Assembly: GCF_000407185.1 (NCBI RefSeq)
Contig: NZ_KE136482.1
Coordinates: forward strand, 1 to 64,000
Direction: 5' to 3'
DNA length: 64,000 bases
Source of the DNA: Enterococcus malodoratus ATCC 43197
Lineage (GTDB): Bacteria; Bacillota; Bacilli; Lactobacillales; Enterococcaceae
Part shown: positions 1,374-27,096 of the stretch, one piece after another
Numbering within the stretch: the stretch's first letter is position 1
How the letters are laid out: the number at the start of each line of letters is the position of its first letter
The notes under the pieces: generated by a model
The model's input: only the letters and a program-made list of their open reading frames with translations
Database searches by the model: none
What the model was told of the DNA's origin: nothing
Program-made: the position numbers and the translations under genes

Positions 1374-1874
1374 ATTCAACCACAGAAGCAATTAGTTGCC
1401 GTATCTCATTGTGTTTTGAATCAAAATGCAGTGATTCATGGCTGGGAGCGGGCACGCGGAGCATTTCCATTTGCGATCGATTTGTTGAGTCGCGGAGTTG
1501 CTCTGATTCAATTGCCGTGTCCAGAATTTATTGTATTAGGTGGCGGACGTCCGCCGATGACCTACGAAGAGTATCGAGATTTACCCGCTTTTCGTCAGCA
1601 GTGTCAAGCAATGCTGCAACCGATGATCCAGCAGATCCAAGCTTATCAAATGGAGGGGTATCAGTATCTCGGCGTAATCGGAATCAATGAAAGCCCGAAT
1701 TGTTCGATTAGCGGACAACGCGGCGTTTTAATGGAAGAGTTTTTTGCGGAATGTCAAAAGGCTCAAATTGGAACCAATTTTTTAGAAGTGCCCACGTGGT
1801 ACACCGAGGAAGCTCGGGGTGATTTTAATGAACAGTTGCAAATGTTTTTAGAAAGAGGGGTAAGGAATGAATAG
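1374..1874 (+). CDS. TudS-related putative desulfidase (CD3072-like)
   Basis: The protein of about 166 residues resembles small TudS/DUF523-type proteins that use conserved cysteines, probably on an Fe-S cluster, to remove sulfur from thio-compounds. Visible are an N-terminal SHCVLNQNA cysteine motif, LPCPEF and NESPNCS. An ATG does not open this frame. The best start is ATT at 1374, 7-8 bases after AGGAGG at 1361-1366; the TTG at 1416 would delete the first conserved cysteine. It sits 18 bases after selA and overlaps the ECF S-component gene by 8 bases. The substrate is unknown; a sulfur or selenium compound is an inference from neighbours. Confidence 0.75.
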   Translation: MQPQKQLVAVSHCVLNQNAVIHGWERARGAFPFAIDLLSRGVALIQLPCPEFIVLGGGRPPMTYEEYRDLPAFRQQCQAMLQPMIQQIQAYQMEGYQYLGVIGINESPNCSISGQRGVLMEEFFAECQKAQIGTNFLEVPTWYTEEARGDFNEQLQMFLERGVRNE

Positions 1875-11835: not shown

Positions 11836-11932
11836 GGGAGTGGATGGGTTCTGGTGTTCCCTCTGGTCTTCAAAACCAGTATGAGGAGTTAGGAGCTTCT
11901 TGGGTAGGTTCGATTCCTACACATTCCCGCCA
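11836..11932 (+). tRNA. selC: tRNA-Sec (anticodon UCA)
   Basis: A 97-base cloverleaf with an encoded CCA end. The anticodon arm CTGGT-CTTCAAA-ACCAG carries TCA at 11870-11872; the T arm is GTAGG-TTCGATT-CCTAC; the long acceptor pairs GGGAGTG with the 3' strand ending ATTCCC, with G as discriminator base, and there is a long variable arm (GAGGAG/CTTCTT). These are the distinctive features of selenocysteine tRNA, which decodes UGA with SelB. It is transcribed alone. selA about 10 kb away agrees with a working Sec system. Confidence 0.93.
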
Positions 11933-26684: not shown

Positions 26685-26717
26685 AAAAGAAACCTCCAAG
26701 TAATTGGACAGTTCCTT
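26685..26717 (-). terminator. Minus-strand terminator after small membrane protein gene
   Basis: GAACTGTCCAA / TTGGAGGTTTC hairpin (imperfect) followed by TTTTTTTG on the minus strand. Confidence 0.6.
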
Positions 26718-26836
26718 TACAGCAATATCTTTAAAATGAAATAGACAATAATCCAGAATAGGATGCAAAAAGCAAAAATAAGTCGATAGATGATGTGTCT
26801 TGGCTGGCGGTAAAGCCATTCGTAAATTTTTTTCAT
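26717..26836 (-). CDS. 39-residue membrane peptide
   Basis: Minus-strand frame MKKIYEWLYRQPRHIIY followed by one hydrophobic segment (about 19-38, LIFAFCILFWIIVYFILKILL). AAAAAGGATTTTTACT precedes the ATG and a terminator overlaps the stop. The size and single segment resemble bacterial small membrane regulators or type I toxins, but there is no proof. Confidence 0.55.
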   Translation of the reverse strand: MKKIYEWLYRQPRHIIYRLIFAFCILFWIIVYFILKILL

Positions 26837-26933: not shown

Positions 26934-26969
26934 AAAAAACACGGCTGCGAATTTCACAGCCGTGTTTTA
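26934..26969. terminator. Strong terminator after the tRNA-like RNA
   Basis: AAAACACGGCTG / CAGCCGTGTTTT hairpin. Read on the minus strand it follows the tRNA-like element and is followed by TTTTTTG. Confidence 0.8.
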
Positions 26970-26978
26970 CTATCCAAG

Positions 26979-27061
26979 TGTGGACGGCTGGAATCGAACC
27001 AGCACCTCTATCTTAAATGCGGACTACATCACTGAACGAGTAAAACACCAAGTTCATCCAC
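26979..27061 (-). ncRNA. tRNA-like RNA of 83 bases
   Basis: On the minus strand the 5' GTGGATG pairs with CGTCCAC (7 pairs) and GCTGG-TTCGATT-CCAGC is a canonical T arm with TTCGATT loop, followed by A as discriminator. A GAAC/GTTC stem may replace the D arm. The middle part gives no normal anticodon arm (best: GATG-TAGTCCG-CATT without U33). No CCA is encoded. It has its own promoter and terminator, so it is expressed. It may be an unusual tRNA, a tRNA pseudogene or a regulatory tRNA mimic. Confidence 0.6.
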
Positions 27062-27068
27062 GACTATA

Positions 27069-27096
27069 AGTATAGCGAAGCGGCTGGGAATTTGAA
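27069..27096 (-). promoter_or_regulatory. Promoter of the tRNA-like RNA
   Basis: Minus-strand TTCAAA (27091-27096) and TATACT (27069-27074), 16 bases apart; transcription would begin at about the first base of the tRNA-like body. Confidence 0.6.

Follow-up and report, generated by a model that had tools for sequence, protein, structure and literature searches.

In the tRNA-like domain of tmRNA the acceptor and the T arm are kept, the anticodon arm is replaced by a helix and the D arm is reduced; a tag ORF, pseudoknots and a G3-U70 pair are further features of tmRNA. The eukaryotic mascRNA/MALAT1-type RNAs are small and tRNA-like as well, with a reduced middle arm, and are released from a long RNA. 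The CiaR-controlled csRNAs of streptococci are not tRNA-like; the CiaR site is an NTTAAG-N5-WTTAAG repeat located about 10 nt before the -10 box. Finally, the sections of PMC3399842 used here describe “tRNAOther”, a pseudo-tRNA of the Bacillus cereus group which lies beside a genomic island, has a Trp anticodon and was proposed as a tRNA-like element of a larger regulatory RNA; extensive similarity to its transcripts is given there for the B. cereus group only, although the introduction of that paper places tRNAOther also in some other Bacilli.

The RNA family presented in this paper is apparently undescribed, since no published description was recognised in the literature searched, and by analogy its nearest described system is tRNAOther. 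The two are alike as tRNA-like RNAs outside translation in the Firmicutes, found near an island and with a regulatory role proposed (for tRNAOther, in the same sections of PMC3399842). In contrast to tRNAOther, the enterococcal family has no Trp or other anticodon, the anticodon arm being absent from the RNA under study; many members have a predicted start at the acceptor; and the family covaries over several genera, with up to 4 copies per genome (genome G138). With tmRNA it shares the kept acceptor and T arm, the replaced anticodon arm and the reduced D arm, but its members measure only 57 to 132 nt, ARAGORN, which looks for tmRNA too, calls none in the window, and the hallmark G3-U70 is absent, pair 3-70 being G-C in 85 and A-U in 5 of 90 distinct sequences. 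Unlike the mascRNA-type RNAs, the family is bacterial and often has its own predicted promoter and terminator.

The member that we concentrated on lies in a 64,000-nt stretch of the Enterococcus malodoratus ATCC 43197 genome (the window). A sequence-only reading had described at this place a tRNA-like RNA with a seven-pair acceptor stem and a perfect T arm, a middle which cannot form a normal anticodon arm, a promoter set for a start at the acceptor and a terminator just behind, giving no strand; our analysis bears out each of these features and places them on the minus strand, from 27061 to 26979. The RNA comprises 83 nt including position 73 (A26979) and is assigned to subfamily A. In the minimum free energy (MFE) fold, the 5' acceptor strand GUGGAUG (27055-27061) pairs with the 3' strand CGUCCAC (26980-26986) in seven pairs, one of them U-G, and covariation supports the same stem. 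A mini D-like arm, AAC-UUGGU-GUU (27044-27054), with three pairs and a GG-containing loop, abuts the acceptor directly, and the T arm GCUGG-UUCGAUU-CCAGC (26987-27003) has a perfect stem with the loop UUCGAUU. The place of the anticodon arm is taken by a different arm of 35 nt (27006-27040), composed of an outer helix, CUC (27040-27038) with GAG (27008-27006), and an inner helix, AGUG (27033-27030) with CAUU (27019-27016), which closes the loop AUGUAGUCCG (27029-27020). Neither the fold nor covariation gives a 5-pair stem with a 7-nt anticodon loop in this middle part. The fold has an energy of -25.3 kcal/mol (z -2.10; plus strand of the same region, z -0.89), and this is matched by 8 of 200 shuffles, which makes the energy by itself only mildly unusual. 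The window copy scores 71.6 bits with the second of our covariance models (R2, below) and is the only one in its genome, where the other model matches have E values of 0.29 or weaker.

The window RNA is not an ordinary tRNA. No standard cloverleaf was found for it: ARAGORN calls no tRNA at the site, and the Rfam tRNA model (RF00005), run at relaxed thresholds, gives 17.2 bits against a curated cut-off of 29. This alignment covers the seven-pair acceptor stem and the T arm with its TUCRA-type loop and omits the D and anticodon arms; the 5-pair anticodon stem, the 7-nt loop and the anticodon of the model have no counterpart in the fold, in the covariation or in the ARAGORN results. None of the Rfam 15 families other than tRNA reached the gathering threshold over the RNA, either in the window or at the loci of 20 relatives; at relaxed thresholds an L20-leader model overlaps the region with 20.5 bits (cut-off 58.7), aligning mainly to the terminator hairpin. 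Standard tools miss this RNA in the window, where ARAGORN and Rfam at the gathering threshold are silent.

Relatives were sought on several taxonomic levels. A BLAST search in 60 genomes, including the window's own, returned full-length relatives (E<=2e-27) from 13 of the other 59; these hardly vary in the middle, and their T-stem pairs change together. A second group, subfamily B, has the start GTGGATGAACTTGGTGTTT and the T arm in common with subfamily A and a different middle. The covariance model built from subfamily B (R1) matched 69 of 105 genomes of the bacterial family at E<=0.01, or 65 after removal of four matches (29.7-31.8 bits) which were taken as ordinary tRNAs, two of them (L088 and L094) having been read. 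R2, built from 46 members, matched 110 of 395 genomes of the order at E<=0.001, where matches of 38 bits or less were taken as ordinary tRNAs and dropped; at E<=1e-6 (44 bits and more) we count 68 of the 395 genomes, distributed over three families of the order. The class-wide R2 search at E<=1e-5 gave 8 matching genomes among 398 of Bacilli, all of them Lactobacillales and none outside this order. The named carriers in Enterococcus include avium, raffinosus, devriesei, hulanensis, hermanniensis, pallens, moraviensis, caccae and others, and Vagococcus records also carry the RNA. The pattern GTGGATGAACKTGGTGTT occurs in 82 genome stretches, including many chance matches in unrelated phyla; by reading, the RNA-like ones come from Enterococcus, Vagococcus and a Lactobacillales MAG.

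A viral or phage source was considered and rejected: an exact 19-nt pattern has one viral-contig match, a chance match inside a long ORF, and the phage collection yielded only a 24-nt T-arm match in one Vibrio phage (two records). The RNA may sit on a secondary replicon, because the orthologous locus of E. raffinosus (L249, NZ_CP081847.1) belongs to a 985-kb replicon recorded as a plasmid and the window's contig has 1.19 Mb. Two kinds of small RNA gene were seen in the surroundings of family members. A selenocysteine tRNA lies in the window at 11836-11932 on the plus strand, and in E. hermanniensis (L045) about 70-75 nt separate a B-type copy from a selenocysteine tRNA encoded on the opposite strand; at L048, an Rfam BsrC match (1705-1792, minus strand; 59.8 bits, cut-off 38) lies about 110 nt from a B-type copy, again on the other strand.

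For structural comparison we used one match from each of 94 chosen sources (90 distinct rows), leaving out L087 (34.4 bits), the truncated L023 and a number of near-identical or unfetched matches. Aligned by R2, these members have 93.4% of base-pair cells intact, so the decay of stems in relatives that would mark a pseudogene was not found; two-sided changes occur at 21 of the 29 pairs, and covariation scores 0.355, with controls in which the partners are slid reaching 0.075 at most. This alignment is fitted to R2 and leans towards its structure, and the members are related so that the counts do not represent independent events; we therefore regard the covariation as strong but not independent evidence. 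An alignment of subfamily A made without a model (14 sequences, 11 distinct) has 99.2% of cells paired, with three T-stem pairs changing on both sides, and the CUC/GAG and NAUG/CAUU helices with the 10-nt loop fit all 14 sequences; the joint MAFFT alignment of A and B lost its register in the middle, and no counts were taken from it. The single-sequence MFE folds of eight members are less uniform: only the window and L083 give the full outline with its D hairpin; this hairpin is missing from L039, L053 and L187, which keep the acceptor and the T arm, and the folds of L210, L199 and L208 depart from the consensus.

The constant part of the family consists of the acceptor, the D hairpin and the T arm. 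G1-C72 is kept in all 90 distinct rows, pair 6-67 is mismatched in 19 of them, and the second pair of the D arm covaries (A-U 80, G-C 7, C-G 2, other 1; n=90). In the T arm, 99.3% of cells are paired and three of the five pairs show two-sided changes. An elbow contact between the GG and the T loop is plausible, since the T loop is UUCRA in 92 of the 94 members and the D-loop region contains GG in all 94. The length of the replacement arm may be put at about 10 to about 85 nt from the family's range of 57-132 nt, with 47 nt outside the arm in the window; this arm is near invariant in subfamily A, and it is changed or replaced in other clades. An encoded CCA is present in none of the 94 members, but this was dropped as an informative sign, since 23 of 24 ordinary tRNA sequences of the window's genome also lack it (of three that were flagged, a single one, a tRNA-Asp copy, proved on inspection of the ends to have CCA after position 73). 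The RNA is, judged from its relatives, not a pseudogene, because covariance searches recover related members in Enterococcus, in Vagococcus and in a third family of the order.

The predicted transcription signals agree with this view of a maintained gene. Upstream of the window RNA lies the promoter-like sequence TTCAAA-16-TATACT (27069-27096, minus strand), with a predicted start at G27061 or C27062; its -10 box ends 7 nt ahead of G27061, the first acceptor base. A promoter scan of the window alone is weak (5 sites found, 3.9 expected), but all 15 A-type members counted carry, 6-7 nt upstream of the first acceptor base, a -10-like hexamer, and over the 94 members 41 hexamers have this spacing against 11.9 in shuffles. 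At this spacing the RNAs should start at G1 without a leader, and we suggest that transcription of many members should begin at the first acceptor base; in some other members a candidate -10 lies further upstream, and their transcripts would begin with a leader. Behind the window RNA, an intrinsic terminator (26936-26968, minus strand), a 15-pair hairpin with 7 G-C followed by a T run, begins 10 nt past the last base. Within 110 nt, a terminator-like hairpin is found in 37 of the 94 members, the window's included, and in 2-7 of 94 in five shuffles. Taken together, the covariation in the 94 relatives and the -10-like hexamer at a fixed distance from the acceptor give good support to the view, argued already in the sequence-only reading, that the RNA has a function.

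Part of the family may be under specific control. A relaxed NTTAAG-N5-NTTAAG direct repeat, presumably comparable to the streptococcal CiaR site, stands upstream of 13 of the 94 members (shuffle mean 0.16), six of them B-type and seven from other clades (L039, L040, L042, L043, L044, L047, L072, L073, L078, L095, L098, L099, and L201). The likeness to the csRNA promoters extends to its location 10 nt before the -10 hexamer in the B-type copies; in contrast to the csRNAs, only these 13 members have the relaxed repeat, and a CiaR-type repeat is absent upstream of the window copy. The repeat fits a regulated rather than a housekeeping expression of the 13 members. A hairpin-like inverted repeat was also seen by eye shortly before the acceptor at L187, L188, L225, L075, L041 and L208, all of which, except for L208, lead into a peptide ORF.

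The comparison points to tRNA acceptor, T-arm and elbow features conserved without an anticodon arm, behind a predicted promoter that is fixed in many members. An RNA conserved in this way across related species probably has a job other than reading the genetic code. Our tentative preference, which agrees with the mimic or decoy named in the sequence-only reading and which we hold at somewhat short of even, is for a non-decoding tRNA mimic that would work through its acceptor, T arm and elbow and, bound in trans, would serve as a regulatory decoy or scaffold. According to this scheme, the RNA would be made as a transcript of roughly 80 nt and bound in trans by a protein that recognises tRNA via the acceptor, T arm and elbow; RNase P or Z, a CCA-adding or modifying enzyme, EF-Tu, or an envelope enzyme using aminoacyl-tRNA are the candidate partners. 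The bound RNA would then act as decoy or scaffold, with the lineage-specific arm adding specificity or stability. A trans-acting RNA fits with the neighbouring genes, which differ among the 11 B-type loci with listed ORFs, and with the presence of up to four copies in a genome. Some data speak against the mimic: the middle of subfamily A shows a conservation beyond what a simple spacer would require, three of the eight MFE folds lack the consensus, pair 6-67 has its mismatches, and 28 of the 94 members lead into a small membrane-peptide ORF, so that a cis role is possible at least there.

This cis role represents the main rival, which we consider unlikely but worth weighing at length. It supposes that the tRNA-like fold near the 5' end of small membrane-peptide mRNAs controls the peptide, the fold being cut by tRNA-processing nucleases or protecting the 5' end, with the stand-alone copies derived or attenuated. 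The ORFs themselves are more frequent than expected: under a strict test (ATG start preceded by a Shine–Dalgarno sequence, 26-60 aa, hydrophobic helix, 15-110 nt downstream), 27 of the 94 members pass, whereas the antisense side gives none in 94 and 2503 random places give 17. The set of 28 was listed by hand, starting from 30 and removing the non-hydrophobic L083 and the TTG-started L073; L065 was retained though its hydrophobicity is just under the cut. None of the 28 has the terminator-like hairpin that 37 of the 94 members possess, and another peptide, which is conserved (MKK..WLYRQP..) and distinct from those of the 28, is encoded up to about 700 nt downstream of seven A-type copies, those of L003, L005, L008, L010, L014, the truncated L023 and the window. 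The last of these is the small ORF MKKIYEWLYRQPRHIIYRLIFAFCILFWIIVYFILKILL (26717-26836, minus strand), which stands behind the terminator and has a ribosome-site-like stretch. By its predicted flanks the RNA is either a unit of its own or the head of a peptide mRNA. Against a general cis role, however, the hairpin follows straight after the RNA in those 37 members, among them the window's, and 29 of the 94 have neither hairpin nor ORF; the mutual exclusion of the two depends on the chosen set, since L073, left out of the 28, has both a hairpin and a TTG-started hydrophobic ORF which passes a looser test. Moreover, the peptides differ between clades, and nine downstream peptides, including the 39-aa ORF of the window, match no Pfam or NCBIfam family above the cut-off. 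The 68-aa protein behind L043 does match Pfam DUF378 above the cut-off. A link to the SE2200 small proteins of staphylococci was dropped, because the single match (one peptide, E 0.002) is below the curated cut-off, the RNA was not found at SE2200 loci (no Rfam match at four, no tRNA-like sequence in the short stretches) and the class-wide search gave no member outside the order.

A base-pairing sRNA, in which mRNAs would be found by the middle loop (AUGUAGUCCG in subfamily A) and the tRNA-like body would provide no more than a stable scaffold, appears to us quite improbable. It would account for the near invariance of the subfamily A middle, unpaired positions included, and it has a precedent in tRNAOther of B. 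cereus, for which the sections of PMC3399842 used here propose a role within a larger regulatory RNA. Nevertheless, the 12-nt complement of the A loop has 26 occurrences in 21 genomes, of which 10 are the RNA genes themselves, and the remaining 16 are no more than the reversed control gives, likewise 16 (one pattern, by our own sums). The loop also differs between clades, and the clade-to-clade variation of the middle arm would fit a mimic better than base pairing.

That a charged RNA serves as an amino-acid donor, feeding a non-ribosomal aminoacyl transferase for lipid or peptidoglycan, was among the functions named in the sequence-only reading and has since been weakened; we consider it highly improbable. 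The acceptor and T arm, the half which such enzymes see, are the most conserved part of the RNA, G1-C72 is invariant in the 90 rows, and the inability to decode would keep the amino acid out of translation. Position 73, however, which is read by many synthetases, is G in 55, U in 22 and A in 17 of the 94 members, and this variability speaks against a single amino-acid identity, such as a tRNA has. The mismatches of pair 6-67 (19 of 90) also disagree with a donor, and the members predicted to start at G1 would bear a 5' triphosphate unless processed.

Like genuine tRNA genes, the gene of this RNA seems to serve as a site of integration. Element ORFs were listed around two A-type loci (L182, L183). 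In E. devriesei (L182 1519-12899), the full gene and a duplicate of its 3' part enclose an element of about 11 kb, whose tyrosine-recombinase-like gene is represented by two listed ORFs; compared by eye, the ORFs that flank this region on either outer side look like the neighbours of the window RNA. Similar sequence follows the gene in E. pseudoavium. The second copy of E. hermanniensis was also considered as an attachment-site duplicate, which was rejected, this copy being a B-type paralog. On the E. devriesei arrangement one could regard the whole RNA as the relic of a decayed tRNA gene, kept as a phage or island attachment site, but a relic would not be expected to show two-sided stem changes, a wide distribution and a promoter at fixed spacing, and we give this explanation very little credence. 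Still less credible is an ordinary tRNA with an odd fold: it could call on one ARAGORN call among 46 loci (L008, tRNA-Ile, anticodon AAT) and on the distant member L199, the only one of 20 relatives' loci above the Rfam tRNA cut-off (29.1 bits against 29), yet ARAGORN is silent in the window and at the other 45 loci, the window RNA scores below that cut-off and by inspection the middle arms have no common anticodon loop.

Returning to the tRNA mimic, one can propose, as a broader and rather doubtful reading, a new class of regulatory RNA: a leaderless mimic with an interchangeable arm which would tie the tRNA-handling machinery to the enterococcal cell envelope. With the same doubt, this class would be partly controlled by a regulator of the envelope-stress type and partly fused to small membrane-peptide genes. 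In E. faecalis the RNA adjoins nhaC in one record, and another genome has an identical RNA; since this species carries a copy, existing transcriptome data and laboratory strains may be used for testing. The terms nhaC, EF0636, EF0637 and tRNA-like are absent from the main texts of the E. faecalis/E. faecium transcript map (PMC7724050) and of the Grad-seq publication (PMC10117718), and the copy may stand as an unnamed sRNA in the supplementary tables of PMC7724050.

Few bacterial RNAs are known which keep the half of a tRNA used by processing and charging enzymes and discard the decoding half. The compensatory conservation of such an RNA across several genera would offer a testable handle on the purpose of tRNA mimicry in bacteria.
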